Positions 18,720 to 55,597 of a stretch of 64,000 nt of DNA are shown here, piece by piece. The notes below the pieces were generated by a model, which worked only from the letters and a program-made list of their open reading frames with translations, was not told the DNA's origin and did no database searches. Both the position numbers and the translations under genes were made by a program. The first letter of the stretch is position 1, and each line of letters begins with the position of its first letter. Origin of the DNA: Agarophyton chilense. Its lineage: Eukaryota > Rhodophyta > Florideophyceae > Gracilariales > Gracilariaceae. The stretch covers positions 1,860,001-1,924,000 of the forward strand of contig JARGXX010000092.1 of the NCBI GenBank assembly GCA_030374765.1, given 5' to 3'.

Positions 18720-19820
18720 TCACATTAGAGAAGAAGCCATATGTCCGTGTGTTTTTGAATTTCTGAAAGCTATAAATGACAATCGAAAAGCTATTGTAAA
18801 TCGGTCACACACTTTTTGAGTGATTAAAAGGAGGTCACGTTGTTATGAACTGTGGGGAAACTGGATTTAAATTGGATTTACGCATTACACTGATCTTGAT
18901 TCGAAACCTGAAAATGGTTGGGAATTAAAGAAGATTTGTTGTGGAAGGAGTGGAATCATTCTCAAGATAGAAATCAAAAAGAGAGCTACACAATCAGATT
19001 TTCAGCCTTTGGCATCTAAACATGCGCATGGAACAGCTGTTGTAATGAGACTGGTTGAAGGTTGGTTCGAAATTGATCGAATTGTTTGTGCCGATTCATA
19101 TTTTGCATCTGTTGAAACAACAGAGGAACTTTTGGAAAGAGGGATGCTATTTATTAGTGTTGTAAAAACAGCCACCAGAAGGTTTCCTGCGAAACATATT
19201 TCCGAACTTACGATGAAAGCACGAGGCCAGCACGTGACAATGGTGAAGAAACTTCCAGAATTTGATGGGAAGATGATATCTGTGCTCTGGGTGGACCGTT
19301 AGAGGAGTTATAACATCAGAACTTGTAGCAGTACCCAACCAGAAACTCCCTTTTCTTGTGAAAGATGGGGGATAACTGATGAAATAACAATGAAAATTCC
19401 GCTTTCTATTGCTGTTCCAAAGGTTTTCGAGGAGTACTATCCTTATTGTTTTAGAGTTGATAGGCATAATAGATCACGTAAAAATGATCTGAATATGGAA
19501 AAGAAGTTCAAAGTCAAGGAATGGTCTTTCAGAGTAAATACTTCTTTGCTGGCAATGTGCATGGTTGATGCTTGGAATCTCTACAACGGTTCATACGGGA
19601 ACACATTAAATCTTATACCGCATAATTTCTATTGTAGTCTCGCAGACAGATTCATAGATAATAACTAGGATGCTTTCCGAAATATGAGAACAAAATTTAA
19701 GGAGTAACATGAGATAGAAAAAACCTAAATGGCTGATACCAGCATACATTTAATGAAGAAAACTCGAAAACGAAGGACGTTAGATGGTTTGTTTCTTCTC
19801 AAACAAATCAAGGACGATGT
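18720..19820 (+). pseudogene. piggyBac-like (DDE_Tnp_1_7) transposase relic, 5' part
   Basis: Degenerate transposase read in several frames. Recognisable family segments are a C-C-G-R-S-G-I block before 18965, then HGTAVVMRLVEGWFEIDRIV and CADSYFASVETTEELLERGM with the conserved catalytic-region Asp, then ISVVKTATRRFP (ORF 19009-19302). A further ORF (19390-19668) reads VPKVFEEYYPYCFRVDRHNR and WSFRVNTSLLAMCMVDAW, the usual C-terminal part of PGBD-type transposases. At least two frameshifts or stops separate these pieces. The coding sequence is cut at 19820 by an LTR retrotransposon and resumes at 32555. Confidence 0.8.
19816..19820. repeat. Target-site duplication GATGT, left
   Basis: Five bases immediately before the LTR terminus TGTAGTATTC. 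They are identical to those after the 3' LTR at 32555-32559. A 5-bp duplication is standard for LTR retrotransposons. Confidence 0.85.
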
Positions 19821-20206
19821 TGTAGTATTCTACTACTCTCGGAATACTGATGGAATATTTTTCGTATTACTAGGATGATACTCATAGGTGAGTGCAACAG
19901 CTATGATGAAGTTATGAAGCGGCATCCCGCAGATAGCCAGCGAGGTGGTATGTTACACGTGGGATCTCGGTCTGCAACGGCGCATCCGATTCGACCCTTT
20001 GTAGGGAAATACTGGATTGGCAACCGCGCATATAGTTGGTAGCCACGTGGCAACTAAGCCTATCCTTCGTAGGTGGAAGCCCATTTAGAGCTAGTTATCC
20101 CGTACTGTAGAAGGGTTAATTGGCTAATCAAGTTTATATCTAGATATTATTATATGCGGCGCTCAGCCCTGTGCACAGTACACAAAGCACAGAGGGCAGG
20201 GCCGAC
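19821..20206 (+). repeat. LTR1-A 5' LTR, truncated
   Basis: About the first 386 bp of the LTR1 sequence (TGTAGTATTCTACTACTCTC...), alignable by eye with 31904-32290 and with the complements of 47985-48359 and 55500-55597. It stops at GGCCGAC, where LTR2 begins with TGTAAC. Confidence 0.85.
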
Positions 20207-20652
20207 TGTAACAAAATGAGGGGTGGGTCAGCGTACGGGTCTCGACCGGTGGTAGCGTGGTAGAGCGGGTCCTAAGGTTCGAATCCTTGACGGCGGCATT
20301 CCCAGAGTACTTGGTGCAATCAACTGGCGTTTACTGCGTAGTCGTACAGGTTGGAGCTACGGAAACGATGGCTTCAAGACCAAAGGGTGGAACTAATGTA
20401 CCAAAGAGGTTTATTTAGTATCCAAACGGTGCCTACCTTACTCTAAGGGAGAAACGTCACTCGAGCCAAGTAAATAGTACTGGCGAGGGGCTGGGATCTC
20501 CCTGGCACTGTAATGCTAGTCTATTACACTAATCAAATTTAATTAATAATCTACATGAGTCCACCTGAGGTCGACCCGTACACGTGTCATCTGCAAGATC
20601 CTTCAGGGCCCGGCGGCTTACAAAGCTCAACCGCTATCATCGCGTCTTCACA
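20207..20652 (-). repeat. LTR2-A 3' LTR (left copy)
   Basis: 446 bp. On the minus strand it starts TGTGAAGACGCG and ends CATTTTGTTACA. It pairs over its full length with 29656-30103 with scattered differences. Confidence 0.88.
20253..20298 (+). other. tRNA-like D-arm/T-arm relic inside LTR2 (left copy)
   Basis: TAGCGTGGTAGAGC resembles a tRNA D-arm (A box) with three bases missing. It is followed by GGTTCGAATCC, a perfect B-box consensus, within a foldable T-arm (TAAGG/CCTTG) and a CGGCGGCA tail. The anticodon arm is absent, so this is not a functional tRNA. It lies on the strand opposite to the element's gag-pol and is also present in the other LTR at 29702-29747. Confidence 0.45.
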
Positions 20653-20668
20653 TACCTCCCTCCTTAGG
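20653..20668 (-). promoter_or_regulatory. Polypurine tract of LTR2-A
   Basis: The minus strand reads CCTAAGGAGGGAGGTA directly before the 3' LTR start TGTGAAG. It is the expected plus-strand primer site and agrees with the minus-strand direction of gag-pol. Confidence 0.65.
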
Positions 20669-21094
20669 ATTCGGCCGTCACGGCGAAGTTCAGATGGCCT
20701 CATGCTTGACCCAGGGGATGCGAGCACTTCGTTGCTCCCGGTACCATTGGGCGCGACGGGACGTCGCGTCGTCATCGCCTGCGGGGAAGCGGGGAAGCGT
20801 GAGCTGACCATTGGCGCCGAAGGACAATTAATTTGAATAAGGACTGAAACTCCCACGCGCCGTGAGCGCTGGCCATAGGGGCATCGCCAGCGTACTCCTC
20901 GCTTCCCGATGCCGAGACGGTCCTTTGGCTTCTTCCTTAGTCTTTTTTCTTCCTTTGGCGACCCTCCGCGCTTCTTCCACCGTGGTTCACGCCTGTCAGT
21001 CCGTCCGGGTCGATTCCGTCACCTCGCCTTATCCTCGTGGTACTTTTCCATTGGTCGCGCGCGATGCCGAACTCGCCTTATAAGCCCATTGGAT

Positions 21095-23081
21095 ATGCCG
21101 TTCTCCCTCCGGACTTTGTCGCTTCCGTCGGTTGTTCTATTCACCTCCCGGCGGACCAGCCTGTGGGCAGCGGCACCATGGCTTCGAGCAACCAACCGGG
21201 GAGCTCCTCGGGATACCAAGTGGCTTACGAACGTTCTGGAAACTGCTATGATCATACCATCGGACGGAATCCGCGGGCAGTGCGTCATGCCTTTCTCCCG
21301 TCCTCTGTGGAAAATACCAGCTATTTCGACATATCTATCTCGTCGTTCGACGGTTTGCCAAGATACCCGATTTCCGGAGGGGCAACAAGAACGCGCGCAG
21401 CGTCTCGTGGTATATCCGATGGTTGCATTTTCCTGTGGATCCGCGTTCGGCGACGCGATGTAGCACTCTCATCCAAACGGACATGCCGTACGTCCGCTGC
21501 GAGGAGGAAGCCGACTACCAGTTCCGGGTGAACAAACTCCTCTCGGACGTATACACGGGTTTCATCTCGCCTCATGTGCGCTTTCCTCCGGCTTGTCATA
21601 ACCTCTTGGTGCTTATGTGCTTCCGGCCGCCGTATGACCGCTTGTTATGGATGTCCAACCGGGTCTATTGGAACGAGATGCACGAGCCCGATAGTCGTCT
21701 GCGTCAATCCCTGGGGTTCGTCTTTTGTTGGCTCCAAGTGGAGTTTCACGACATGAGCGCAGACAAACGCCTCCCGTCGTACCTCTCGCTTCCCCACGAG
21801 GAGGATGATAACCAATGGGCCATGTATTGGCGTGTACCGCCGCTCGTTCTGGTTCCCACGCCGTCCGTGGTGGCGTACCACTCGTCCCAACTCATGGGCG
21901 ATGACAATGACCGAAGTTCATGGCTGTCCTGGGAGTTACTCTTCGTCGACTTCGGCGTGATGTCTCTCACGGCCTTCCTAGATACCGCGAAGTACGGAAT
22001 CCGTGGTAATGTCCGCCCGGAGGATTGGAGGGTGTGGTACGATGAGAACATACCCGGTCCTCGAGGTTGCTTAATCACCCTCCTGGACATCATGATCCAT
22101 TTCCTAAGGAGCCTGGGCATCCAGGATATCGTACGTGGGACCCAGTTCGACGTCGAGGAGACCAAGGCCCTTTTGGATCATGTCCTACAGGTGGAATGGG
22201 GCAAAGCTCCCGGGTTCCTTTGGTATGACTGAGATACCGACTCATTCACGCCGATTCGGCTGCATCCGCAGGGTTGGGACGACAACCCTTTAAGAAATAA
22301 ACCATCGGACATTCCGAGGCGTCATGTGCCCGACTATTATCCGAAGGCCATTGGATTCGATCCTCTGTGCTTCGAGCCTGATGTGGAAGCCACGCCCTTG
22401 GTTCTTGCTGGTATGTCCGATGGAGAATCCTTCGGTGAAGACCCCTTCGTCCTACCCGTGGAGGGCGTTCATCCTGCGTTCGAGTCCGCGGTTGTGTTGC
22501 CGACCGCTTCCCCTCCTCCAGCTCCTCCGGGCGCTGCTCCTCAGGATGAGCTCCCGTATGAACCGATTGTCGCCCAAGTGAACATCCCTCCTGGCGAGGT
22601 TACTGTCGAAGCCGAAAGTCCTGTAGGCAAGGCCCTTGCTCAAACGTTAACTGGGGGCGTCGACATCGCTCAGTCCTCTCCGTTGCCAAACCTTCCTGCT
22701 TCGGTCACTGCTGCAGCTGCGGATCTCCGTCATGTCTGCCATACCGTTGGTTTTATGGCCTCGATGGACATTGCGACAGTCCTGAGGAAAACATGCTCCT
22801 GAGAGCGTCGCTCGGCTCGCTACGCCGCGGTTGTCCAAGAGGGTCAGGATCTGAAGCCCGCCATGGTCAATATCCTGCAGCAGAATGCGCAGGCGATGTC
22901 CCAGAGGGTTACAGCCGACTTGGATGCCCGGTATGGTCTAAATTTGAGTGACCGTGAGGCTTCCGATGATGACAATAGTTCCTCAGGTGAATCTCCGCCG
23001 AAGAAGCGTGCTTGGCTCGCTGGGTCGTTTCCTGCAGGTTCCAATGAGGACGCCGGAGTTACTCCTGGGCCGCCCCCGTGA
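21095..23081 (+). pseudogene. Antisense accessory gene of LTR2-A (novel family), broken
   Basis: Runs opposite to gag-pol between the chromodomain end of pol and the 3' LTR. The frame from the ATG at 21095 is open to 21463. A shift of frame near 21410-21460 leads into 21423-22232, which continues in the same frame past a TGA (22230-22232) and a second TGA (22800-22802) to 23081. The total is about 640 codons. The middle part (KLLSDVYTGFI; DSRLRQSLGFVFCWLQVEF; WSWELLF-like block) lines up by spacing with the LTR1-A antisense protein (KLIYQRLHRFI; DVRDAALCFRRPLLRADF; YWTVVFSEF). The last 150 codons are Pro/Ala-rich and end acidic with a PPKKRAW basic patch. No known domain was recognised. Confidence 0.6.
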
Positions 23082-23277
23082 GTCCTGTTGGTGTTCCGAG
23101 CGCTTCCGCGACCCTTGAGGTCATGGTGAGGGTTGTTCTACTTCTGTTAGCTGTCAAATAAATTAATGTTTGTGCTTTCCAAAGGTCGTTCTTGTGTCTC
23201 AAACGTGCATGCCCCGGCACAGCGCCCAATCTTGAGAGAGTCTCGGGTCTTGCTCAGGTATTTCCAAAGGACTGATC

Positions 23278-26200
23278 TTATTCCTTGATGCGGGAGCTAC
23301 GACGAACCATTGTGCTCCGGCGAACCGTCATGTCGGGAGGCAGTTTGGGAGGCGTTTGGGGACTATTCCGACCAATGGTTGCCCCCTCCTGAAGGCCGCA
23401 CTCCGTGTGGCTGATTCTGCGCCAATAGCGGGCGATATAATTAGCCGGAATGGTTTGAGGCTCTTGCCAAGTGTCTTCCACAGGTGTGTAGCAGAACCAA
23501 CGGACGCGATAGCGCATAGTTCCATCTTCTCCCTGACAGGCGGAGATGATGCGCTCAATCACATATTCCGGTTGGTGTTCATTCGCCCGAAGGAGAGTGT
23601 GGTCCAGAGGGGCGATTCCATCTGAGTCGGTTGGGAGAGATGGGACATAGTAGTTGGCGTTGACCATCTGTTCCATCGGGCTAGTGGAGTTTGCGGGAAC
23701 TGCCTTAGGGGGTGTGGAGACTTGCGCGTCGACCTTAGGTCGTGGTGCTTCCGTTGGGTTAGGGGGCTGGGACTTTGGTGGTCCGGAGGAATTAGGAGCT
23801 CGTGTCACGCGGTCAATAGACACGGTGTCCTGTAGGCCGTCAATGAGTAATGTGATAGTGTGCTCATTGGCCTTAAGGACTTTGTATGGTCCCGTAGAGC
23901 GGGGTAAGAGCTTCCGCGTAGAGTCCTCGAGTTTCTCACTGTCATTTGGTGGCCAGTCAAGATAAACCAGATCTCCTTTCCCAAAGGTCGGAGAATACGC
24001 CTGTGGAAGCGTGCATCTGCGTGTTGTAGACATAAACCAGTGGCTCATCGTAATTGTCCCAGTCCAATTGGTGCTCCGAAACGTATTGCGCCAATCGATT
24101 TAGAAGGGTGCGGTTGAAGCGTTTGGATTGGACATTGGTTTGCCGGTGGTACGCCGTGGTGGTCACATGTTTTATACGTAAGGTAGCACAGACATGCGGG
24201 AAGCATTTGGATACAAACTGGCTGCCGTTACCCGTAAGGAGGTAGAGTGGCATGCCATATGGATATACCCAGTGGGCCAAAAAGGCCGTGGCGACATCCG
24301 TGGCCGTTGTCTTTTCTAGGAGTAGGGCTCGGGTAAGTTTGGTAAACCTATCGGTTATAACCAAAACAAACCGTTTCCCATGGGACGACTTAGGCAAAGG
24401 CCCAAGTATATCCATTGCGAAAAATTCAATTGGACCTGCGGCGAGGAAGAACTTCATTTTGGCCTGATGGTTGGCGCGAGACCCTTGGATCTGTGCGCAC
24501 GATGCACATTTCCGTGCGGTTTGCCATAGGTCCTGCGCCATTAGTGGCCATTAGAAGAACTTCCATAGGGTCTGGTACATCCGTGGGCCTCCACGATGAC
24601 CACCCAAGCGAAGGAAATGGGCGAGGTATAGGAATTGCGCCCTCAGCAAAGTTGGTATTACCCGTTGGAGTGCGCCATCCAGCGTTGAGCGGCGACATAG
24701 TAGTCCAAATCGGTCATAGTCTAACAAGCATCCTGGGGTTCCTACCAATTGGGCTGTTTCTTTGCAGTACCCGTCTTCGACCTGCGCCTGTAGGAGTTCC
24801 TCAATAGTTATAGGGACGAATTCTTTTTCCTCCGGGGCTATCGCCTTAACCTGAGGTGGTGCCGAATTGGGCGGTACTGTCTCCCAGTCTAATAGGTATA
24901 ATTCGTTCTCCTTTACCTCAGGATCCTTCGATTTCACCTTATCCATAAGGTCATCTGTTTCGGTATAGTTCTGAGGTCCATCGTCTGTAAAGGGGGTAGG
25001 AATTAGGTTGTCCAATGGAGTGTCGTCAGTTCCGTCGGTAATGATTCGCGAAAAGGCCTCTGCTGCCTAATGATTGATGTCTGGCCTATAGGTTATCTCG
25101 TTGTCATATTCGGGGAGCCTGAGGGGCCACGTAGTGAGGCGCCTCGATGCATCGGTCATATTGAATAACCATCGGAGTGAATCATAGTCTGTCCTCATGG
25201 TAAACCTGGTTCCCTCAAGGTACGAACGGAGTGTCAATACAGATCATAAGATGGCTCGATATTCCTTTTCGGTCGTACTGTAGTTTCGCTCCGCGCCGAT
25301 GAGCGTTCTGCTCCAGAAGCCAATAGTTCGATAGTCCTTCGGTGACTCTTGTTCCTGTAGCAGTGCACAACCCACTTGGACATCAGAGGCATCTATGTTC
25401 AGGCAGAAATGCCTAGTACTGGTCGTCGGAAAGGGCTCCGAACTCCGAAGGTGTTCCCTTCTTCAGCATCGCGTTGAGAGGGGCCGAGATCTTGGCAAAC
25501 CCTTGGACGACCCGTCGGTAAATGTTTCACAAGCCCACGAAGGATCATAGTTCTGTGTGGTTCCTAGGAGGCTTAGCCTGGCGAATCGCATTTGTGGTCC
25601 GTGTGGCCACTTTTAGCTTTCCTGGGAGGACGACATGACCAAGATAGTTCACTGAGGCCTGGAAGAAAGCGCATTTGCGGAGTTTCAGTGTTACTCTAGC
25701 GTCCTGTAGGATTATTAGCACCTTCTTCACGTGGCGAAAGTGTTCCTTTAAGGTCCGTGAGAAGATTATAACGTCATCCAAATAGACCAGGGCGAACTTC
25801 CATTTGACTCCGGACAGTACAATGTCCAGTACCCCTTGGAAAGTGGCTGGTGCATTCTTCAAACCAAAGGGCATGCGAGTAAATCTGAACAGACGTTCAT
25901 GGGTGGTAAAGGTTGTCAGCGCTCTCGTATCTTCAGCCAAAGGTATTTGCTAATATCACGAGTTAGCGTCCAGTGTGGTAAATACGACAGCTTCGCCTAA
26001 GGAATCCAGACAGTCGTCCATGTGTGGTACCGGGTATGAGTCCCTCTTGGTTACTGCGTTCAGATTCCTGTAGTTGACACAGAACCTGACGGAGCCATCT
26101 TTTCGCCACGGGGACAAGGGGACTTACCCATTCGGATTGGTTTGAAGGCGCCAGCTCTATGACTTGAGCTTTATGCATCTTGTCCATCTCGTCGGCGAAA

Positions 26201-27270
26201 ATTTCCCTACCTTTAAGGCCGGTGCGGTATGAGTGCTGGAACTGTGGTCTAGCATCATCCTGAAAGTCAATGCGGTTTGTAGTGGCTCTGATTGCGCCCA
26301 ATCTAAGTGACCACATGGCCTGGTATTCTTTGAGAATATCAAGTACCTGGGGCCTATGGGATTCGAATTCTTTCCCGATGGCGACCGTTCCCTCCCAAGA
26401 GTCGACGTCCTCGGCGGGTGTTGGCGTGGCAGGGTTATCCATTTGGGCCTCTATAATGGCCACGGGCGCGGGTAAAGTGATACCAATCACTGCACCTTTA
26501 GGTAACCGCACGGGTTTCTCTCGGAAGTTGCTGATTGTGACCGAAAAGGACCTGTTGGGGTGGATGTCCATTACTCCACTGGCCATCAAGGTCAGGTGGT
26601 TTAGAACCGTTTTCGGGTGGTTCTGAATCGTTACGAGACCTGAGGAGTGGGAATGTACCGATACAGCGATTTGGGTCATCGCCGGTATCGTTATGGCATT
26701 TGACAGGCAAACCTTATTGGACTTCGTGTTTTCGGAGACAACCGCTCGTTTGCGGTTTGCTCCTGGCCCTGGGGTTGAACCAGTTATGGAGATGGAAGGT
26801 GCGCGGTAAAACGCGACTTTCCCAATGCCTGGATAAATGGCCTTAATGTATCGGTCGATAAAGGAGGTCACTAGGATTGTCTCGGCGCCCAAGTTAGGAC
26901 ATACAAGAAACCACGTGCAGGCTTTGAATTGTCCTGCCTGGAGGTAAAGTGGTACTACCCCTTTAATGTCCATCGGTCTGCGAGACGCATCGGTAATCCT
27001 TGGGGTCTTCCTTGCCTGAACGAACTCTTTCCAACCAAGTGAGAGTAGCTTAGGATGGCCCAAGTTGGGACCAGCACCTGTGTCCAATACAGCTGTGGTC
27101 ACTCGAGAGTTGTTGGAACGAAGTCCTACGGATACTCGAACTTTATAGTTCTCTTCCCTGAGAATACAGACGGGGTCGTGACTGTGTTCCAATTGTGGTT
27201 CATTCTGAGTGGTCCATTGTGGGTGGTTTGCATTGGGAGGTGAGGAGCTCTTTGGCTCATGACCGTCCAA
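23278..27270 (-). pseudogene. LTR2-A pol: protease, RT, RNase H, integrase, chromodomain
   Basis: Protease: VTTAVLDTGAGPNLG, with the active-site DTG intact. Reverse transcriptase: FTRMPFGLKNAPATFQGVLD and VYLDDVIIFS, the catalytic YLDD intact. RNase H/connection: RTDYDSLRWLFNMTD and RLPEYDNEI, with stops around it. Integrase (23957-24541): CASCAQIQG of the zinc region, MDILGPLP with the first Asp, then LTGNGSQF and RQTNVQSKRFNRT. In the last two motifs the usual Asp of DNGSQF and the usual Glu of V-E-RFN are replaced, so integrase is dead. C-terminal chromodomain: PEYVIERIISACQGEDG and RVRWFCYTPVEDTWQEP. Several frameshifts (near 24540, 25540 and 25950) break the polyprotein. Confidence 0.88.
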
Positions 27271-27320
27271 TTGGTTGAGGCAGGGGCTTAAAGAGGGAGT
27301 ATTTGCCTCGAGTCGTCCCT

Positions 27321-29620
27321 CTAGGAGGTTTCCGATGGCGTTTCCGTTTCTTCCTCAGGATAGAGTTCTTCCACGGGGTCGTCCGTAGGATCTACAATGG
27401 CGTGAACCTGTGGGGCTTTGATCGGAGTGTCCGGAGGCGTGGCATTGCGTAAGCTTCCAGGGGTCCCTGTGGTTCGTTGCTGTGCCCGGTTATACATTCC
27501 TTCGGATCTCCGCACCCGGTAATTCTCTTCCCTTAAGGCTAGGAGGTTTTTACGTGCGTCCTCAGGGAGATACCTCGTACATTGACAAGGTTGGGTCACA
27601 GAAAGGCAAAGGAAGCAAGCCCTTGAGGAGCGAACAAAAACGTCCTTGCGGGGCGGAAAGGGAGAATATTTGGGTGCGGGTGGTCCAGTGGTCGCTGTAG
27701 TTCCTTGGGAGGTATATGATGGGGGCCCGGAAGGAGAAGCACTGAAATTGACCGCGAGGACATCTCCCGAATCGGCGCGAATGAGTGAAGCATCCATGTC
27801 CGACTCCGTGGAGCTAACCAAATGGGCTTGGTTGGGTTTACGCAATGGAGTTGTGTGTCCTCTGGTTATATCAGTGATGCGCCTGGAGTTCCCGCAGGTT
27901 TCGCTATGACCCTTGGAGTAGGTAACGAGCCTTCAGAAGGAGTATTGCGGGGTTCCCGTGTGGTAATAGCGCTCATGTGGCCGAATGGCAGGGAGCAATC
28001 CCGTGATGAAGTGACATTTAAGCCATCCTTGGGAGGACACGTTTCCACATCGCTAAGCTTTCTTCCATAGGTCGTCTGCGAAAGCCGATTCGGTCATGCT
28101 GGAGCTCTGACTAAATGATATTACTTCCTGGTGGGCATCCATTATAACGTCATCCGTGGCGTAGCTTTCCAAGAGGTAATGAACAACCTGAGGGTATGGC
28201 CTGAGGAGCTCACGGTCTTGAGCATCCAAGAGGTCAGCTGTGCCAGATATCTTCGAAACCACTCTGTCATGCGCCTGTCCTGTAAGGAAGAATTGGAAAA
28301 GGTACAAAGCGGCGCCCTCGTGGACACCGTTCTGACCGCAGGCCGTACGGAACAAATTGAGAAACCTAAGGACAGCAATGGGATCGAAACCCGAGAACTT
28401 GTCCGTAATGGTTAGTTGCATCCGTTTGGCCCATTTGGCGACTCTGCGAGCTACCGAACCAGAATATTTTGCGGACCTGTCGGCCAGCCGGTGATTCCGG
28501 TAGTCTACAACCTTAAGAAAAAGTTCGTTTGTGGTTGTCAGTGGTCTGAGGCCTCGAACGGCAGCCTCATTCACATCCGAGTCGGTCGTTTCGGTCGAGG
28601 CCGATTCGGAATCACTCGTGTCCGAATGGTCTCTTCTCTTGCTTCTTCTGTTGTTCTTTCTCCTGCGGTTACTTCTTTTCTTTCCATCTGAGTAGGGACC
28701 TAATGGATCGATCTCTCTATCTGATCCGATGGAGCCCTAAGGTCGACCTCATATAATTCATCGGGTGGGGCCAGCGGTCTCTCTTCTAGACGCGGAGCTT
28801 CTCTTATGCTCCTCGATTGTCCCTCTCTTGGTTTCTCCTGATGGGCAAACTGTCTCTCATCCAAACGCGAAGATTCTATTCTACTCCTAGATTGGCCCAC
28901 CATGAGATTTCCCTGATGGTATTCCCGGCGAGGGGCGGATTATTCTGCCGCACCTGGGGGTTCAGTAGGGGGTTTCCATATGGAGACCGGATGGTTGATT
29001 TGTTGTGTGGTGGTCCTAGGGACCAAATTGCCTTCCTGGCGGGTGACGGCTCCTTGAACGGCCTGCAGTAGGGAGTCTATGAATAAGTCAGACTCCGATA
29101 CCTTAGAGACCATTCGAGCGATGAGGTAATCCGTATGGTCAGCGATCTCCGTAGAGAGTCGCACATCCATAATGGAATCCACGTGGGTAGAGCAGAGCTC
29201 ACGGAGACGGGGCCAGAAAAGGTCGGCAGGACCTGTGGGCAGGTTTTCTCGAATTCCTTCGGTCTGGGGGGTTTCTCCTTAAGGTTTCCCTGGCGTAGAG
29301 GTGATCTTGGTGAGGCGTTCTCGTAAATGAGCTTCCACCGTGGGTTCTCGGCGAATCCTTTCAGGGTTATCCAGTAAGGTCAGTACTTCTTGCGGCTGGC
29401 TCCTCGTGCTCCTGCGGTCGCTAGCGATATCAACCTGAGGGTCAGGCGAAATCGCCGGCGTGGTACTCGCACTTCTTTCTGACGTAGGATTCCTATGGTC
29501 GGGTCGGTTCGGTGTGTTTCCTGCATCCATATTGGCGGTTGCTTCTGTACTCCTGGTCCGTTGGGGAATTAAACCAAAGGTTAGAATCCGGATAATTCTT
29601 CGTTCCAGTGGTCCGTTCAA
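27321..29620 (-). pseudogene. LTR2-A gag
   Basis: Broken into minus-strand frames 29279-29620, 28940-29182, 28700-28903, 28053-28574 and 27321-27845. The 28053-28574 piece has the retrotransposon gag/capsid look (FDPIAVLRFLNLFRTACGQ; ALYLFQFFLTGQAHDRVV; VVHYLLESYATDDVI). Upstream, 28700-28903 contains two copies of a repeat around RLDERQFAHQEKPREGQSRS / RLEERPLAPPDE. The last piece has a Cys cluster (CFLCLSVTQPCQCTRY) like a nucleocapsid zinc knuckle. Gag packages the element RNA in cytoplasmic particles. Confidence 0.75.
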
Positions 29621-29632
29621 TTATTACTTGAG

Positions 29633-29652
29633 GTTTCTAAGTCGGGAGACCA
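29633..29652 (-). promoter_or_regulatory. Primer-binding site of LTR2-A
   Basis: The minus strand reads TGGTCTCCCGACTTAGAAAC three bases after the 5' LTR end TTACA. It begins with TGG, as expected for pairing with a tRNA CCA end. It nearly equals the LTR1-B site (TGGTCTCCTGACTAAGAAAC). Confidence 0.7.
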
Positions 29653-29655
29653 AAA

Positions 29656-30103
29656 TGTAACGAAATGATGGGTGGGTCAGCGTACGGGTCTCGACCGGTG
29701 GTAGCGTGGTAGAGCGGGTCCTAAAGTTCGAATCCTTGACGGCGGCACTCCCAGAGTACTTGGTGCAATGAACTGGCGTTTACTGCGTAGTCCTACAGGT
29801 TGGAGCTACGGAAACGATGGCTTCAAGACCAAAGGAGGGAACTAATATACCAAAAGGGTTTATTTAGTATCCTAACGGTGCCTACCGTACTCTAAGGGAG
29901 AAGCGTCACTCGAGCCAAGTAAATAGTATTGGCGAGGCATTGAGATCTCCCTGGCACTGTAGTGTTAATCTATTACACTAACTAAATTAAATTAATAATC
30001 TACATGAGAGTCCACCTGAGGTCGACCGGTCCACGTGTCGCCTGTAAGATATCTCAGGGGCCGGCGGCTTATAGGGCTCAACTGTTATCATCGCTCCTTC
30101 ACA
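29656..30103 (-). repeat. LTR2-A 5' LTR (right copy)
   Basis: 448 bp, TG...CA ends, next to the primer-binding site. It diverges from the left copy at many scattered positions, which implies an old insertion, or two different source elements if recombination formed this copy. Confidence 0.88.
29702..29747 (+). other. tRNA-like relic inside LTR2 (right copy)
   Basis: The same A-box-like and B-box-like segments as in the left LTR, with AGTTCGAATCC in place of GGTTCGAATCC. Presence in both LTRs shows it is part of the LTR and not a separate insertion. Confidence 0.45.
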
Positions 30104-31780
30104 GCTGGTACGGTGATTCATCATGGCGGTAAGTGCAGCACGATCGCCTTGCAGCTGTGCTTCGGGGAAGCCCGCGTCTCAGAGGAAGTGTCTCAACGGT
30201 GCCAAAAAGGGATCCTCCGCATCGCTCGGTTGTTGGGCGAACCCATGATGGTACCCCATCGACGGGTTGTCACCCGATGCCATAGCCGTTGGTGGCGAAG
30301 CAGCCGTCACAGGCGCAGTACCGGATAGCTCGGGTTCATCCTCGAAATAGAGTTCTGCATCAGCAGGTGGAGCTTCTTCATTCTCCTAATATGCGAACTC
30401 GGAAGGTGAGGACTCGTACACATATCCAGTACGCTGATTTGAAGGGAACTCCCTAGGATTCGCACGAAGGTCAAGAGCCTGATCAGACGTGATTATCTGG
30501 CTGGTCCAGAGATTCTACCATACAAAATCTCCAGCATTAGCTGTGCGTCCCGGAGAGGGATCTCGATGAAGCACCCTTGTGCCTCTAGCTGATTGCTCCA
30601 ATGGAACCCCATGCCAGTCGATACTGTCGATCAAGTCTACCAAGAGTAGGAATTCGTCATAATTGGCACGGGACCCCAACACAAGGGAAAGATTGAGTTG
30701 TCTCGCATATCTCCGCGCTGTTGGCGACATGTACCAAACACGATAAATTTCGTAGGCATCCCAGAGGATATACGCCGCTATCTTGGCAATGAACTCGGAG
30801 AACACGACCGTCCAGTATCCCGAGAACGGGTCTTTAATCAACGCGGAACCGATATAGATTATTGCAGGAGGAAGCTCCACCGGACATCCACGAGGGCTCT
30901 TGACTTCCTCCCAGTGTTCTGGCAGCGCAACATAGCGTCCGACGCGAGGATTCCACCTAATTCGATCAATCTCGATCATTTGGTATAGAACCAGGTACCC
31001 CAAGCGGGATCTCTTATATCTTTCCCAACGAGGATAATCCCAGTAAGGAATGTCTCTTTTGTGGAGGAAGCGGAAGTCCGCACGGAGTAAGGGCCGGCGA
31101 AAGCACAGTGCCGCGTCGCGTACATCGCGTAAGCCACGCCATTCGTCGACGTCGACTTTGTATAAGACCTTGATGTACGAGTATCCTTCGCCATTCGTGC
31201 GAGCCATCCAGGTATCCAGCTTCCAATCTCCTGGGAGAACGACTGTCTTAATGAAACGGTGCAGACGCTGGTATATCAGCTTCGTGAACCGAGTTCGGGC
31301 TTCGTCCATACTCTCATTGGTATACCGGTCAATCGCGTTATCTGGCAAAGCACAGTAAGAAAGCCAATCGTGGCTGCGGATAGCTTCATAAGGAATTCCA
31401 TCTGGAAGGTAACCGTTGAAGACATACTGGCTGATCAACGCGTCATCGCGAAGAGCGACTGGGTCAAACCATGGAGCCTGCGCGAAGATGTCAGCATCAT
31501 CGAGAGGGTCTCGTTCCACAAAGTCCGCGAGATGTGGGTAACTGAGTTGAGCCCGACGAGACGGCGCTCAAATGATCCCAACGGAGGATACATACGCTGC
31601 ATTCGGCATCACACCTAAAGATGAAGGCTGTAAGGGGAAGGAGTGGAAACCCACGCGAGGAGACCGCATTGATCGGAAGGTCGAAGGCGCTGCAGCTTGC
31701 GAGTTGAAGCCACTGCTGGCATAAGGGTTCTCTGAGGGTACGTCTCCGTTGTTGGAGTTGTGCGGCGCGTGTGGGTTTGT
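30104..31780 (-). pseudogene. Antisense accessory gene of LTR1-A (novel family), 559 codons
   Basis: Runs opposite to LTR1-A between its lost pol and its 3' LTR. From 31780 down to 30104 the frame has no frameshift in 559 codons and only four stops (31568-31570, 30515-30517, 30386-30388, 30179-30181). The longest open piece is 30515-31519. The N-terminus (HAPHNSNNGDVPSENPYASS; FRSMRSPRVGF) and C-terminus (GFPEAQLQGDRAALTAMMNH) both match the short LTR1-B protein, which has an ATG where this copy has ACA. The centre is rich in aromatic and Arg residues (YPRWERYKRSRLGYLVLY; YRVWYMSPTARRYARQ). The gene is cut two codons before its end by LTR2-A. No known domain was recognised. Confidence 0.7.
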
Positions 31781-31890
31781 CGCTGATCAAGTCGAAACCG
31801 ATGGTGCTTTCGTCGAGACAAGGAGATTTTGGAAGGCCGATGCATGTTCGGGCATATAAAGACCTCTTGCATCGCCCGTGCTTCGCGCTT

Positions 31891-31903
31891 AACAGGGAGG
31901 ATG
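31891..31903 (+). promoter_or_regulatory. Polypurine tract of LTR1-A
   Basis: AACAGGGAGGATG lies directly 5' of the 3' LTR. The same sequence sits at the matching place in LTR1-B (complement of 48360-48372). It marks the plus-strand primer site of reverse transcription and fixes the element's orientation. Confidence 0.75.
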
Positions 31904-32554
31904 TGTAGTATTCTACTACTCTCGGAATACCGATGGAATTATTTTCGTCTAAGTACGATGATACTCATAGGTGACTGCAACGGCTAGGATGAAGTTATGA
32001 AGCGGCACCCCGCAGATAGCCCATGAGATGGTATGTTACACGTGGGTCTCGGTCTGCAACGGCGCATCCGATTCGACCCTTTGTATGGAAATACCGGATT
32101 GGCAACGGCGCATATAGTTGGTAGCCACGGGGCACCTAAGCCTATCCTTCGTAGGTGGTAGCCCATTTAGAGCTAGTTATCCCGTACTGTAGAAAGGTTA
32201 ACTGGCTAACCAAGTTTATATCTAGATGTCATTATGTGCGGCGCTCACTCCTGTGCACAATACATAAAGCACAGAAGGAAGCGCCGACTCCAAAGTAAAA
32301 CAGACAACCACGGGTTTACAAAATATCTTTTCATTGATCAGGATTCCTTAACCGGAGATCCGGACGAGCTACAACAAGTAGTCGTCCGTTTCAATAGTAC
32401 TAACCACCCTGATTGGTGAATAGGGCCTTAAACCCCCCATTATAGCTCGCTAATGTTGTGCTCTACCACATCTACCTCTTAGTCGCAAGCACCCATACGG
32501 CAGTTTCGAACACTTTCGGAGGTGTCTGTTATACCTGTTAGAGCGGATACTACA
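31904..32554 (+). repeat. LTR1-A 3' LTR, complete (651 bp)
   Basis: Starts TGTAGTATTC after a polypurine tract and ends GGATACTACA. The ends form an 8-bp inverted repeat TGTAGTAT/ATACTACA. The length agrees with the LTR1-B 3' LTR (652 bp). Confidence 0.88.
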
Positions 32555-32559
32555 GATGT
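32555..32559. repeat. Target-site duplication GATGT, right
   Basis: Matches 19816-19820 exactly and shows that the outer LTRs belong to a single insertion event. Confidence 0.85.
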
Positions 32560-39588: not shown

Positions 39589-41079
39589 TCAAGGTAAGTT
39601 AAATGCGCGGAGGGAACCAATATCCTGGACCACGCGCGTACATGTCTTTGCAACATCCAGGAGCATTATAAAGGTGAAGACAAGCTGTGAAGCAACTATG
39701 ACAACTAGAAACATGATACGATTCCAGATTGAAGAAAAATTGATATTCCACATGACGAAGTCCCAGACAATAAGGTATAACGCATCAGCTAAAGACCACA
39801 CAACTATTCTCTTCGCACAGTCGGCGAATCGTGGTTTATGATACTTCAGTTTTGCCTCTGAGAGAATTGAAGATGTCTGTGCCAAACATAATGCTCCAAC
39901 GAAAAGTAGAACCACAGAGTTGAACAATGCTCTGACATGGGCAAATGAAAAGAAAGCCTGCAGGGGAGGCATTGTTGTCGGAACGACTCTTAAAGAAGTA
40001 AATACGGCAACACTCCAACTGACGAACCCAATAAAGGACAAATAAAAAGAGTTCATTCGTGGCGAAAGCTTGTGGAACGAGAATTGTGAGATACTTTCGA
40101 GGATATGAAAGGTCCATGGCGAAGAATCGAAGATTAGGAACAAATTAGAAAGCCAGACATACGCAGCAACAGCAGATAAGAGAGAAAACCCGTTCATGTG
40201 AAAATCGACAGCAATATCATTCCATAGTTGTTGGCGATACTTGTGCCACACCCAACTAAGATCGAAAATGCTATAACCCCACCAAATCCAAGGTTTCATG
40301 AACGGAGGGCCTAACCATTCAATGTCTCGTGCTGGTCCACATCCCGGGTTCTTTTCAAATGTAAAAGATAATCTGTTGTAGTATGCGCTGTGATCAGTAT
40401 GATAAGAGAAAGGGAATCTAGCAAAGGTCATATTCTTCCTTGGATTGTCTGGGTGAAATAGTGGTGCACATAGCATTTGCGGAAAGTATGAGTTGAGGAA
40501 CCCTTGATCTCCTCCATCATAGGAGGGGGTGTAGGGTAGAACGCTCACCATGTCCTGGTACATGGTGGCATTGGGGGAAACAAGCATAAGCCCACTGTTA
40601 AAGAAACATGGATTTATGAAGGTTGCACAAAACTGAGCGCAAGAAAACAAAGGCGATAGATCCTTTAGCACGAGCGAATCGGCATCAATGAAAAGAACTC
40701 GGTGGTATTCTGTCATGTTGAAGACGGCGAGCTTTGTCATGACCATGCCGAACCTAGGGTGAAATTTTGCAGACCCAATGTACGGAGATGCAACCGGCGG
40801 AATGCGAATTACACGGATACCCTCGTTCTCAAGTCGATTGATGTTGGCCTCAGATGTATCTCCGGTTTGAAGCACAACTCGCTCTCTCAGATTCCGGGAG
40901 TCAGGGCTGTTGATGAACAGGGATTGCATCATGACTCGGATCGGTAACGCATAGGTGTTGCCGTACAGAAGACTAACGTATGCCTCACGTTTGGATTCGA
41001 CGTGATCGCCACTGCACGACACGACGGTGACAAAAAGAAGGAAGAAAACTAATGTGATTGACCCGATAGTGCAACGCAT
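39589..41079 (-). CDS. GT8 glycosyltransferase with C-terminal membrane domain, IPUT1/PGSIP6-like
   Basis: A 496-residue protein from the ATG at 41077-41079; the upstream extension starts with TTG and is rejected. It has an N-terminal signal (about 1-24, SITLVFFLLFVTVVS) and then a glycogenin-type GT8 fold: YVSLLYGNTYALPIRVMMQS, metal-binding DAD at 132-134 (RVLFIDADSLVLKDL), FFNSGLMLVSP (about 159-169), DQGFLNSYF (191-199) and WWGYS. The last 220 residues hold about six hydrophobic segments. GT8 plus a polytopic C-terminus is the layout of plant IPUT1/PGSIP6, which adds glucuronic acid to inositol phosphorylceramide in the Golgi. The substrate here is inferred from layout only. Confidence 0.85.
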   Translation of the reverse strand: MRCTIGSITLVFFLLFVTVVSCSGDHVESKREAYVSLLYGNTYALPIRVMMQSLFINSPDSRNLRERVVLQTGDTSEANINRLENEGIRVIRIPPVASPYIGSAKFHPRFGMVMTKLAVFNMTEYHRVLFIDADSLVLKDLSPLFSCAQFCATFINPCFFNSGLMLVSPNATMYQDMVSVLPYTPSYDGGDQGFLNSYFPQMLCAPLFHPDNPRKNMTFARFPFSYHTDHSAYYNRLSFTFEKNPGCGPARDIEWLGPPFMKPWIWWGYSIFDLSWVWHKYRQQLWNDIAVDFHMNGFSLLSAVAAYVWLSNLFLIFDSSPWTFHILESISQFSFHKLSPRMNSFYLSFIGFVSWSVAVFTSLRVVPTTMPPLQAFFSFAHVRALFNSVVLLFVGALCLAQTSSILSEAKLKYHKPRFADCAKRIVVWSLADALYLIVWDFVMWNINFSSIWNRIMFLVVIVASQLVFTFIMLLDVAKTCTRVVQDIGSLRAFNLP

Positions 41080-42040
41080 TTCGGCCAGGACGAAAGTCCA
41101 CAACTGTTTCCAAAAGCAAGCAAGAGCATAGAAGGGAATATTGGAGCAAAAATACGATATGAGTAAGAGAATTTGGGGACAAGAAACGCGGCCAAAACAG
41201 TTGTCAGGAGGGTTAGAACTAATGATGAACTCTAAGCGAGATATGGACAGAGAGATTAGAGACTAGGTTTCGACAGCGATCATTCAGAAGTTCCCAAAAA
41301 TGACGGCGTGCACGACGATATTCGTTCTTTAATACCGATGAGGTAGAAAAAAGAAATGCCAGTCGTGCCTTATTTCTGTGGATTGTTCGTGTAAAGGGTG
41401 ATGATACTCCGGACGTCCACATGAAGATCCACTTGTCGGAGACCTGTGGGAGACCTCCTCATGCCTGCAAAGAAGATGTTGCAAGATAAGTTTTATAGCA
41501 ATATAGCACTAGACGCAAGAGTCGTTCCAAGTGTGTGTACAAGTGTGCAGAACAAGAGTCGCTTCAACCTTGGGGTTAGCACGAGTGTCTATACGCCCGC
41601 AATGCTGGCCTCATTTGAGACCCACTTGACCTTACTGTGTGTAAGGCCAAAATCTCTGTTAAAAAGTAACTGAAATTCATTCAGGATTTAACTTTTCAAA
41701 TTCAGAGAGGTAAAGAAGCTCTCAAGTTATAACAGAAACAAGAACCATTCATCCCTATCATTGACGAAAAGGCTCGGAAACCTGGTCAAACAGAGCTTTG
41801 ATATTTTTCTTTAGAATCTTTTTTTCTGGTGTAGCCAACCTACATAGGCGGAATTAAAACAATAACAATATATTTAAAGCTTCAATAAATTCCAAGAAAA
41901 CATGTGGAAAACAAATATCTCTTTGAATCGTCTAAAATTGTATACTTGAAAAAAATGCCAATTATCAGATCGCACACACACGCAGCACACGTGCGCCCGA
42001 AGCAAATATATAGTACTAGCCACCGATGCATCCACAAGTA
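41080..42040. other. AT-rich intergenic region
   Basis: Upstream region of the GT8 gene, followed by AT-rich DNA. It includes copy 3 of the dispersed repeat (41583-41640) and an (AC)n run at about 41970-41990. No gene is supported. Confidence 0.45.
41583..41640 (+). repeat. Dispersed palindromic repeat, copy 3
   Basis: CGAGTGTCTATACGCCCGC followed by TGCTGGCCTCATTTGAG, related to 15912-15953 and to the complement of 33177-33246. The palindrome half is degraded. Confidence 0.4.
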
Positions 42041-44495: not shown

Positions 44496-44832
44496 TTACA
44501 TTTGGGGAGAACGAGATAAGTGATGGGAGGAGTCGATGGGTTGTATCAGTCACAGGAGAATCAGAACTGGCAATCTTGTGCTTTATTGAACCGTTCGCAT
44601 GACTTTCGCGTCATTTTCTGAGCACTTGAACTTCTTGTTGAACGTCTCACATGTGGCACCTACGGTTCAGCCCACATTAATTTCGCCACGACCAGGTTTG
44701 CTTGCACCTTTAATAACGTGGGCCACAATAAATCTGTTACCACACTATTTGTGCAACCACATTAAATGCAGTTACTGGGTGTAAAGGAAACGGGCCCGCT
44801 CTTTCTCGTCACAGGTTATGGGACCCCAAATA

Positions 44833-44924
44833 CGTTCCGTATACCTTACGCTCCATATACCTTGCGCTCCATATACCTTACGCTCCATATACCTTACGCT
44901 CCATATACCTTACGCTCCATATAA
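44833..44924. repeat. 16-bp minisatellite (CCTTACGCTCCATATA)n, left block
   Basis: About five to six near-identical tandem units. The same array continues at 46221-46312 on the other side of the Tc1-like element, which therefore inserted into the minisatellite. Confidence 0.88.
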
Positions 44925-47707: not shown

Positions 47708-48359
47708 TGTATTATCCACTCTGACGGAGAGGGCAGACACCTGCGACAGTTTTCGGGACTGCTAAATGGGTGCTTGCGGCTAAGGGGAAGATGTGTTAGA
47801 GTACAACACTAGTGACCTAGAATGGGAGTTGTAAGGCCCGACTCGCCAATGACGGTGGTTGGTACTATGGAACGGACAACTACTTGTTGTAGCTTGTCCG
47901 GATTCCCGGTTAAGGAATCCTGAACAAGGAACAAGACAGTTGTTAAATACGTTGTGGTCTCCTTTGCTTTGGAGTCGATGGGCCCCTCTGTGCCTTATGT
48001 ACTGTGCACAGGAGTGAGCGCCGCACATAATAATATCTAGATATAAACTTGGCTAGCCAATTAACCCCTCTACAGTACGAGATAGCTAGCTCCAAATGGG
48101 ATTCCCCCTACGAAGGGTAGGCTTGGTTGCGACGCGGCTACACACTATGTGCGCCGCTGCCAATCCGGTGTTTCCCTACAAAGGGTCGAATCGAATGCGC
48201 CGTTGCAGGCCGAAATCCCACGTGTAACTTACCACCTCGCTGGCTATCTGCAGGATGCCGCTTCATAATTTCATCATAGCTGTTGCAGTCACCTATGAGT
48301 ATCATCGTACTTAGACGAAAAGTATTCCATCTGTATTCCGAGAGTAGTAGAATACTACA
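47708..48359 (-). repeat. LTR1-B 3' LTR (652 bp)
   Basis: The minus strand starts TGTAGTATTCTACTACTCTC and ends GGATAATACA. It is collinear over its whole length with 31904-32554. Confidence 0.88.
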
Positions 48360-48516: not shown

Positions 48517-48720
48517 ATGAATCCTTCCGCGCCCCACAACTCCAACAACTTCGACGTACCCTCAGAGGGTCCTTACGCCAGCAGTGACTTCAACCCGCAA
48601 GCTGCACCACCTTCGGCCTTCCGACCAATGCGGTCTCCTCGCGTGGGTTTCCCCGAAGCACAGCTGGAAGGCGATCGTGCTGCGCTTACCGCCATGCTGA
48701 ATCATCATACCAGCGTGTAA
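48517..48720 (+). pseudogene. Antisense accessory gene of LTR1-B, internally deleted
   Basis: An open frame of 67 codons that starts with ATG. Its first 46 residues (NPSAPHNSNNFDVPSEGPYA; RPMRSPRVGF) match the N-terminus of the LTR1-A antisense gene. Its last 21 (PEAQLEGDRAALTAML) match that gene's C-terminus. About 490 codons are missing between them. In LTR1-A both break points read GGGTTTCC or GGGCTTCC, so the deletion probably arose between these short repeats. The result is a still-open miniature. Confidence 0.7.
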
Positions 48721-48806: not shown

Positions 48807-51800
48807 CTAAATACTTCTTCTTCTTCTCGAGTCTTCTCTTCTTCTTCCTTCACATCCTTCTTCTGAAGGGAAAGGGGATTTGCAATTGCTCCGCGAAATC
48901 GCGTCTAGAAAGCCCATGTTTGCGGCGTCGATCTGCGCAGGGAGTGGTATTCGAATGCGACGATGATACCGCACAAGCTGCGAGGGCGGGATATGAGTTA
49001 TAGGCTCCAAATTATCCGCTTCCGGAGGAAAACCGTACCAACGATTACAATACAGTAGTCTGTGTGTGTCTTCGTCTTCGCCGTGATCGATGATGCGATC
49101 TATGTCGTATTCCTGGGCATGTCCCAACGTTACGGAAAATGGCACGAGGTTCCTGTTCACCGGCTTATACCGTCTGACGAACGAACCCGTTGAATCCTGA
49201 CGGGATGTGACAACTTTGTCGTTTCCTTGAACCTCCCGAGGGAGCGCTTGGGAACTCGCTATATATTCAGGTTGAACCTGCGTAGTCTATTCGGGTAGCT
49301 GAGGGCTTTTTGTGCCACTGTAGTGCCGTTCTCGGCTTCTGACTGCATAGTCGTCGGGTCTACGGTTACCCGTTTTTCTTCACGTTGCGTGTTCTTTCTG
49401 TCTTTCTTAGGGTTCTGAACCAAACTGGGCTTCTTCACCGAGGGTTCGGCTGGAGGTGCATCCACCAACAATGGAGGTTTAGCCTCATCTTCGCCTTCTT
49501 CTCTTTGGTCGGCTGACAAGCGCGATCGCTGAGCGAGTGGCGTTCCACTTGACGGTTCAACCTGAAGGGGTAATGGCGTTTTGCAGTGGCTTCTGGACAG
49601 GATCTAATTGGTCCAAATTTGAAAATATCTTTCCGGTCTATCGGTACTGTGGTCGTACCAGAGTGCTGGCTCTTGCCACGGGGCTTATTCAGTTTTTTTC
49701 GAAGAATTGCGGTGGGATGCCACTGTACTGCCGCGCAGCGGGAGATCACGAGCCGTGTCAGCACCGTGTGCCACGGGAGGCGGATCGTCTGATTAGACGG
49801 GTAGCTCCCGTTCCTGCGGATATACAGCGCTTCCTTTCCCAGTTTCCTGGGGTTCCGAGTTGTCTGGTGCGGTTTCAACGCGATCGCGCGGAAACCGTTC
49901 TACGTCCTCTCCTGTCTTCAGGACTATTTTGTCATCGGTGAGCTCCATTATCCTGAAGGATTCGGATGCTATCGGTAGCAATTTGTGACGTGGTCCGTCC
50001 TGCTTTTCAGGTCTTTCCACGCGAACAAACGCGTATCCTCCTACCCGGGTATCTGACAACTGTCTTCGCCGTCGGGCGACCGAATTAAGTTTGTAACGCG
50101 CTTGGGTGTTTGCCAATTCTCGAGCCGCTTGCTCTGTCCTGAACCTCAGGTCGTTTCTCCACTTCAGATGGTTCTTCGCCGGTGCCTGTTTGATTTCCTC
50201 GACTTCGTCCAACCTAATAGGTAGTGACGGTGGGCTACGTGATATCACGAGATCAAAAGGAGCCGCCTTTGTAGACGTATGCACTTGTGTGTTGTACGCA
50301 TAACAGAAGGTGTCTGTGTACATGTCCCACTCCTACAGGTGATCCGCGATGTAATGCCGAAGTTCGGCTAATAACGTACGGTTGTAGCGTTCCACATGAC
50401 CATTACACCGTTGATGGTCGGTCGTGGTAAGAAGGTTCTTGATGCCCATTATTCGGCATACGTTCTGAAAGAACTTAGCGAACAACTGTTTTCCATTATC
50501 TGATAGCAGAACTTCCGGCGGTCACGTACACCCAGTGTTTGATGAAAGTCTGAGCCATTATCGAGGCGGTAGTCGCCTTCAACGGTACAGTCCGTACAAG
50601 TTTGGAGAATCGATTAGTAATTACCAATAGGTAGCGATATCCTTGATTGGAACGAATTAGCTCTGCAAGTATGTCGATGCTGACGAATTGTAGAGGCGCC
50701 TTCACCGGGAAGAGGGTCATCTTTTTCCTCTTCTTATAGAGTTTCATGCGATTCATCGCACACGTTCTGCATACCTTTACCGTCGCATGGCAGTCTATTG
50801 CCAACGTTGGCCAATAGAAGTCCCTTCTTAGGATCATAAACAAGTTGGTTCCTCCTGGATGTCCAGATAGCTTCGCATGATGGCCCAAGTAGAGTACAAA
50901 ACTCTTCACAGCGTGCGGAACCACGATCTTATCATTCTTCTCGACATTTCTGAGCAATATACCTTGTGAATCGAGCGAAAAGGGCAAATCTTACCCCCCG
51001 TTAAGACGAGAGCGTATCGCTGTATAGAAGATATCTGTGAGTTGCTCATTAAAGAGCTCAGTGATCGAGATACGCTGGAGTTAATCAGGAGGTTCAGTTC
51101 CAAAGGTTGCCGTGAAAGGGTCCAATTGGGAACAATCCCCTTCATCTTCGTGATCTTCAAGTTGCGTTTCATCTTAGTTCATCTCCATTGAGAAACACGG
51201 TAAATCTTCATCGATTTCTCCTTGGGTTTCCCCTAAAGTTCCCAACCGCGATAAAGCGTCGGCCTGTATGTAAGCCAGTCCTTTCTTATGTTTAACTTCG
51301 AAATCGAATTCAGAAAGGCGTAAGCGCCAGCGTGTCAATCTTTTGGAGGGGTCTGTTATTGATAAAAACCATCGTAGGGACGAATGATCCGTATGGATGG
51401 TAAACGTTTCCCCCTGGAGATAGGGTCGTAAATTAGTAAGCGCCCACACTACCACAAGGCATTCCTTTTCTGGTACGGAGTAATTCTTCTCTGCAGCGTT
51501 CAGCGTTCGTGATCAGTAACCGATTGGTTTCCTCTGACCGTCCGGATGGGTCTGAAAAAGGGCACACCCTACCTGATACTCACTGGAGTCGGTATCCAAA
51601 GAATATAGTAGGTTAGGTTTGGGCAAGGCCAAGATTGGTGCTTAGACGAGTTTTGTCTTCAAAGTGTTGAAGACTTCGTTTGCGGCGGGTCCGAAATCCT
51701 CGAGCTTAACAGGCTGTCCTTTACGAAACAATGCGTTCAATGGATCTGCAATGTGAGAGTAGCGCGGTATGAATCGTCCGTAGACGTTACATAATCCAAG

Positions 51801-55225: not shown

Positions 55226-55597
55226 TGTAGTGTTCGCTCTACGGAGAGAGCAGACACCTGCGATAGTGTTGGCGACTGCCAAATGGGTGCTTGCGGCTAA
55301 GAGGAAGATGTGTTAGAGCACAAGTCTAGTGAGCTAGAATGGGGGTTGTAAGGCCCTACTCGCCAATGACTGTAGTTGGTAATATGGAACGTACAACTAC
55401 TTGTTGTTGCTTGTCCGGATCTCCGGTTAGGGAATCCTGAACAATGAACAAGACAGTTGTTAAACCCGTTGTGGTCTCCTTTGCTTTGGAGCCGGCGCTT
55501 CCCTCTGTCCCTTATGTACTGTGCACAGGTGTGAGCGCCGCATTTAATAATATCTAGAGACAAACTTGATCAGCCAATTAATCCTTCTACGTCTGTG
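55226..55597 (-). repeat. LTR1-B 5' LTR, truncated
   Basis: About 370 bp collinear with the inner half of 47708-48359. Similarity stops near 55590-55597, so the outer part of the LTR is lost or replaced. Confidence 0.82.

Follow-up and report, generated by a model that had tools for sequence, protein, structure and literature searches.

An antisense accessory gene between pol and the 3' LTR of LTR retrotransposons in the red alga Agarophyton chilense

Antisense open reading frames that lie between pol and the 3' LTR (aORF-3R) have been described in the LTR retrotransposons of plants and fungi, including maize Grande, rice RIRE2, Silene Retand, bean PvRetro13, and fungal Boty, and their functions are given there as unknown (PMC7264820). 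The Grande-type antisense gene is reported in most copies of its family, again with function listed as unknown, and the Grande gene23 protein is described as nuclear, its gene being read from a promoter that lies upstream (PMC7264820). For Retand, a non-chromovirus lineage of flowering plants, antisense coding regions are reported from every cluster of recently active elements and TRP28 from 97% of clusters (PMC11963269). A retroviral counterpart is HBZ of HTLV-1, a nuclear protein whose antisense gene is served by an antisense promoter within the 3' LTR (PMC7264820, PMC11963269). Both accounts treat the role of antisense accessory genes in LTR retrotransposons as an open question in the field (PMC7264820, PMC11963269). 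We found no report of antisense ORFs from red-algal LTR elements in the open-licence literature.

Here we describe such a gene in Agarophyton chilense, based on a 64-kb stretch of contig JARGXX010000092.1 (positions 1,860,001 to 1,924,000; referred to here as the window, with coordinates counted from its first base) and on copies elsewhere in the genome. In accord with a red-algal host, the genome contains 15 matches to the phycobilisome family, 14 of them on contig C39, and a phycocyanin beta chain encoded on C39 has its best match in the solved chain 2bv8_B, a Gracilaria chilensis phycocyanin, followed by two chains that likewise come from red algae. The first-pass annotation had put the gene forward as a candidate novel system, a label that is too broad given that the layout has already been described as aORF-3R in plants and fungi (PMC7264820, PMC11963269). 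By position, strand, and constraint the algal gene belongs to the aORF-3R kind, and it encodes a protein of an unrecognized family.

The antisense gene of the element LTR1-A is decayed and occupies 30104..31780 on the minus strand, where we counted 559 codons with four in-frame stops and no frameshift; rereading the minus strand from 31780 to 30104 agrees with the original description of this frame. Its longest uninterrupted stretch spans 350 aa (30518..31567, minus strand), its first codon is ACA at the place where relatives have ATG, and it is severed by the element LTR2-A shortly ahead of its own stop. The 3' LTR (31904..32554, plus strand) is preceded by the purine-rich tract AACAGGGAGGATG, with 123 bp between the LTR boundary and the antisense start position, and the 5' LTR (19821..20206, plus strand) is truncated where LTR2-A begins. 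LTR1-A is one insertion, flanked on both sides by the 5-bp target repeat GATGT (19816..19820 and 32555..32559), of which the antisense gene, the 3' LTR, and a portion of the 5' LTR survive around LTR2-A. LTR2-A (20207-30103) is nested within LTR1-A (19821-32554), and the LTR2-A flanks, CCGAC and GCTGG, do not match; this mismatch, together with the absence of the LTR1-A gag-pol from the window, suggests that deletion or recombination after insertion removed the latter. An antisense frame between the chromodomain and the 3' LTR had been claimed for all three copies in the window; this is true of LTR1-B and LTR2-A, and because LTR1-A has no gag-pol of its own, the position rests on those two elements and on other copies in the genome.

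In LTR2-A the antisense gene is a real plus-strand coding region (21064..23080, with the start near 21064 and the 3' end approximate), but the single frame 21095-23081 proposed earlier holds many stops and is broken by frameshifts. The open pieces that remain are 21252-22229 (326 aa) and 22233-22799 (189 aa). On the minus strand, the element has a 3' LTR at 20207..20652 with the purine-rich tract AAGGAGGGAGGTA upstream in sense orientation, a 5' LTR at 29656..30103 adjoining the primer-binding site TGGTCTCCCGACT, and a pol tail with chromodomain at 23278..24099 (E 3.2e-05; 24.2 bits, just below the Pfam cut-off of 25.1). The core of the primer-binding site, TGGTCTCC, is common to the LTR1 and LTR2 families.

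LTR1-B retains an antisense remnant at 48517..48720 on the plus strand, an open frame of 67 aa running from ATG to TAA that matches just the N- and C-terminal ends of the LTR1-A frame, joined to each other. Between them lies an internal deletion of ∼1.47 kb, bounded by similar 10-bp stretches; in the copy L009, the stretches at the equivalent of this junction are alike at 9 and 8 of 10 letters. We considered whether LTR1-B might represent a spliced form and rejected this, given that the junction falls between similar 10-bp stretches and that splice signals were not seen by eye. The remaining parts of LTR1-B are on the minus strand: a 3' LTR (47708..48359), the inner part of a 5' LTR (55226..55590) adjoining the primer-binding site TGGTCTCCTGACT, a pol tail (48807..49286) with a weak chromodomain match of 16.9 bits against the cut-off of 25.1, and part of the integrase (49793..50332), which has no Pfam match and was identified because it aligns with the integrase frame of the copy L044. 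Elsewhere in the window we observed two 16-bp tandem arrays (44831-44923 and 46221-46310) with units like TACGCTCCATATACCT, a nearby frame labeled by eye as a Tc1-like transposase (45714-46238), and a 557-aa open frame on the minus strand (39589-41262) matching glycosyltransferase family 8 (E 7e-08).

We searched the genome (79.76 Mb, 135 contigs) for LTR1-type antisense genes with the open 561-aa frame of the copy L015 as the query and scored the best 78 of 1,729 candidates, which gave at least 79 matches: 29 at 66 to 100% identity (LTR1) and 50 at 57 to 59% (a subfamily designated LTR1-C). In-frame stops are absent from 10 of these 79 best-scoring matches, 9 of them LTR1-C. An equivalent search with the 598-aa frame of the LTR2 copy L032, for which the best 73 of 1,281 candidates were scored, gave at least 73 matches at 70 to 100% identity, 3 of 73 being free of in-frame stops among these top candidates. 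Because only the best-scoring candidates were scored, all of these counts are lower bounds and are biased toward intact copies. Antisense open frames of ∼600 to 750 codons are present at other loci in the genome, and copies whose pol frames are open over a longer stretch also carry the gene. Across the two LTR1 subfamilies the antisense proteins share 57 to 64% amino acid identity; in 40-residue windows of the LTR1 and LTR1-C proteins, identity is highest in two central windows (80 to 82%), whereas the N terminus (42%) and the last full window (50%) are low.

Four LTR1-C antisense genes (C34:486338, C114:2893, C115:2627, and C115:49207) are stop-free and have equal scores, and two of them start <3 kb from the first base of a contig; these four arose by recent duplication or by recent insertion. 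Beside an LTR1 copy, at L020:217-2040, lies an LTR2-like antisense gene of greater divergence (63 to 68% amino acid identity), so that LTR2, too, seems to be divided into subfamilies.

Copies without most of the antisense gene occur as well. Of 40 scored candidates, at least 20 hold the antisense gene, 6 are without most of it, and 14 fall in neither group. The two sides of the LTR1-B deletion junction match in one piece in 3 of the 40, LTR1-B among them, and in 3 more (two on C68 and one on C37) the sides are just ∼150 to 460 bp apart. The short joined frame is open in LTR1-B and L047 and contains a stop in L048, where the junction is 6 bp shorter and the deletion is perhaps a separate event. 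The existence of these derivatives indicates that the gene is not required in cis in every copy, and they may have spread with help supplied in trans.

The position of the gene was evaluated at 22 loci (20 LTR1 and two LTR1-C), all selected because they hold it. At all 22, the chromodomain tail of pol lies 113 to 352 bp from the antisense gene, and at 21 of 22 the best chromodomain match is on the strand opposite the gene; the exception is L015, where a short inverted fragment gives the best chromodomain match and the integrase match is on the opposite strand. The original proposal of an accessory gene opposite gag-pol and common to two families is supported. Measured from the 3' LTR boundary, the antisense gene starts ∼120 to 170 bp inward in LTR1-A, LTR1-B, and one LTR1-C copy and ∼410 bp inward in LTR2. 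Since the 5' LTR of LTR1-B is short (366 bp), we considered whether the antisense gene might lie inside a longer LTR; this was rejected by the LTR1-C copy in which both LTRs could be read, where 620 of 668 ungapped columns are identical and the antisense start is ∼168 bp inside the boundary. The antisense gene is arranged tail-to-tail with gag-pol, between the end of pol and the 3' LTR. The DNA that separates the end of pol from the antisense gene has a strongly purine-rich sense strand at L044:3480-3790 and in the same place in LTR1-B; it is separate from the tract beside the 3' LTR and could serve as a second site of plus-strand priming or be no more than a low-complexity spacer.

The chromodomain at the pol C terminus (PF00385) passes the Pfam cut-off in L044 (26.7 bits versus 25.1), and we class the algal elements as chromodomain-bearing Ty3/Gypsy, a designation that does not imply membership in the strict chromovirus clade; chromodomain elements in brown algae have been placed outside the chromoviruses (PMC12477816).

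Evidence that the antisense frame encodes a protein comes from substitution patterns between the LTR1 subfamilies, computed after codons with a gap or stop were dropped. The comparison of L044 (LTR1-C) with LTR1-A gave a dN/dS of 0.148 over 546 codons (95% bootstrap, 0.09 to 0.20) with 131/116/310 differences at the three codon positions, that of L044 with L015 gave 0.174 over 553 codons (95% bootstrap, 0.09 to 0.24), and the L045 pairs across subfamilies gave 0.156 and 0.186, although dS between the subfamilies is 1.7 to 1.8 and near saturation. This range of 0.15 to 0.19 is below the values for the integrase (0.27; bootstrap limits, 0.15 to 0.41) and the chromodomain tail (0.34) between the same subfamilies. 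In the other five frames over the same columns, the two L044 pairs gave dN/dS values of 0.30 to 2.1 with 5 to 26 stops each. The antisense frame is therefore shown to be a real protein gene, maintained by purifying selection along the branches that separate the subfamilies, and a spurious ORF is rejected by this frame-specific selection. Coding on the gag-pol strand of the same DNA was likewise rejected, as its three frames hold 5 to 25 stops each; two have dN/dS values of 1.40 to 2.12, and the third is low (0.30 to 0.31), yet contains 20 to 25 stops, and its low value is ascribed to codon-position overlap. The sequence GTAAGT overlaps the antisense TAA stop in many LTR1 copies; an intron at this position was rejected, because the stop in L044 and L045 is TGA and neither copy has a donor at that point.

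Comparisons within a subfamily come close to neutrality (dN/dS of 0.86 for L044 and L045 and 0.92 for L015 and the window copy), which would be expected if their differences were mostly acquired once the copies had inserted, and selection is hence visible only on deeper branches. Neither refuting outcome named in the first-pass annotation was observed: dN/dS is well below 1 between subfamilies, and the frame is present in copies with longer open pol. Four LTR2 comparisons gave dN/dS values of 0.36 to 0.49 (two of them bootstrapped, 0.31 to 0.66). We also compared nonsynonymous-to-synonymous (N/S) counts for shared and singleton variants on the columns of the window copies, restricted to two-state columns with at least six gap-free codons. 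Variants present in two or more copies have an N/S of 1.33 in the LTR2 antisense frame, the lowest of the six frames, compared to 3.09 for singletons; next comes its mirror frame on the opposite strand (1.64 versus 3.27), and the remaining four range from 2.2 to 3.9. The corresponding signal in LTR1 is weak (2.00 versus 2.84), with one opposite-strand frame at 1.92 versus 2.81.

One blastp comparison between the LTR1 and LTR2 proteins gave an E value of 0.004, and an hhalign comparison of their profiles aligned 167 columns at 23% identity (probability, 49.7%; P, 1.7e-4) with a score of 43.0, against 16.3 for a reversed profile and 30.3 for the best of 98 column shuffles. The distant similarity that had been noted between the two is thus supported, weakly at the level of sequence, and the equal position and strand of the gene in both elements adds weight; the two proteins are probably distant homologues, a relationship that is likely rather than proven. 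The spacing reported for their common motif, K-L-x9-F-I, needs correction to K-L-x7-F-I, and the motif lies outside the block aligned by hhalign. In L044 and LTR2-A the reverse transcriptases are 55% identical and the integrases 42%, so pol is more alike than the antisense proteins, which implies that the antisense gene has diverged faster, if it descended with the elements.

The view that the family has no recognizable domain was upheld: neither antisense protein matches a Pfam family at the cut-off, and no relative was confirmed in the PDB, in viral contigs (IMG/VR), or in bacterial and archaeal contigs (GTDB; 18 pattern matches, none confirmed). These scans reach close relatives, and their eukaryotic coverage is the A. 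chilense genome itself. The best weak Pfam match, of one LTR2 sequence to CapR (E 0.016), is taken as chance. HBZ is a bZIP protein, and no bZIP match was recovered from Pfam for either antisense family; PF04195 (TRP28) had no match in 20 LTR1 and 18 LTR2 sequences at E values up to 0.5. A single-sequence AlphaFold2 prediction for the frame in the window had a mean pLDDT of 36.4 and was unusable. Both the LTR1 and the LTR2 proteins have acidic stretches in their C-terminal halves, and one intact LTR2 copy has a basic patch, PPKKRARL, which we take to resemble a nuclear import signal and which is degraded in other LTR2 copies.

The reading we consider probable, with some reserve, is that this is an element-encoded accessory gene, expressed from an antisense promoter that lies in the 3' LTR or near it, whose trans-acting and likely nuclear product regulates the transcription or silencing of the element itself. 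Such a promoter, within the 3' LTR or immediately inside it, would drive transcription of the gene toward pol, independently of the sense genomic RNA, and the resulting protein would act in trans, most likely in the nucleus, where it may regulate the element's own transcription or silencing by analogy with what has been proposed for plant aORF-3R proteins. The occurrence of deletion derivatives at several genomic locations is compatible with a function provided in trans, and the PPKKRARL patch and the acidic C-terminal stretches are hints only of a nuclear regulatory role. A bolder version, which we regard as doubtful though possible, would make this an ancient red-algal antisense gene of a new family older than the split between the two element families, acting in trans in the nucleus in counter-silencing or self-regulation, with an origin independent of those in Grande, Retand, and HTLV.

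Among the alternatives, the one that fares best is that the gene encodes a real protein serving the replication cycle, in particle assembly, RNA packaging, import, or the choice of integration site. The dN/dS of the antisense frame is as low as that of the integrase, the presence of chromodomains means that integration may be chromatin-linked, and deletion copies could receive help in trans here also; however, separate antisense coding would give such a protein a timing unlike that of the gag-pol structural proteins, and no recognized domain supports it, so we regard a replication role as unlikely while still a serious contender. We give little credence to the idea that the antisense RNA is what matters, with convergent double-stranded RNA tuning or triggering silencing and the open frame incidental: the convergent layout could yield overlapping transcripts, as has been proposed for aORF-3R (PMC7264820), but RNA alone does not predict selection at the amino acid level (dN/dS of 0.15 to 0.17 compared to 0.30 to 2.1 in the other five frames), and this frame-specific selection speaks against antisense RNA as the sole role. 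It is equally improbable that the element captured a host gene and carries it as a passenger from which it gains nothing, a possibility with which the lack of confirmed relatives in Pfam, the PDB, IMG/VR, and GTDB contigs is consistent but which sits poorly with the same location of the gene within the elements of two subfamilies and a second family and with constraint comparable to that on pol. Least probable of all is an Env-like or membrane protein: Env-like ORFs occupy the same place in some elements, but they are described in sense orientation (PMC7264820), and while the LTR2 protein has one borderline hydrophobic 19-residue span (Kyte-Doolittle mean of 1.73 in L032, with two charged residues), the maxima in three LTR1 proteins are 1.07 to 1.49, with no evident membrane span, and no viral glycoprotein family was matched at the Pfam cut-off (one LTR2 member matched RL11D with E 0.11).

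If the protein does counter host silencing, as the regulatory reading allows, it would represent a new kind of factor for studies of algal chromatin, and the compact 79.8-Mb genome of A. chilense lends itself to tests of antisense expression and silencing.

Compared with the described systems, the algal gene agrees in layout and differs in protein family and host. As here, Grande gene23 and its counterparts in RIRE2, Wallabi, and Gran3 are antisense genes between pol and the 3' LTR (PMC7264820); unlike Grande, the elements described here reside in a red alga and bear chromodomains, and the likeness to gene23 is one of layout. The Retand antisense ORF4, which encodes TRP28 (PF04195), occupies the same place and strand as the algal gene, but whereas TRP28 is reported from 97% of Retand clusters (PMC11963269), the algal proteins have no PF04195 match. 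Boty of Botrytis cinerea provides a non-plant aORF-3R with the same arrangement, again a likeness by layout (PMC7264820), and the resemblance to HBZ of HTLV-1 is likewise limited to layout, given that the algal proteins have no bZIP match. The algal gene differs from the known aORF-3R in its protein family, the host lineage, and the chromodomain pol, and the occurrence of such a gene in a red alga, far from land plants and fungi, with stop-free copies and evident constraint on the protein in two element families, suggests that this layout either arose repeatedly or is very old.
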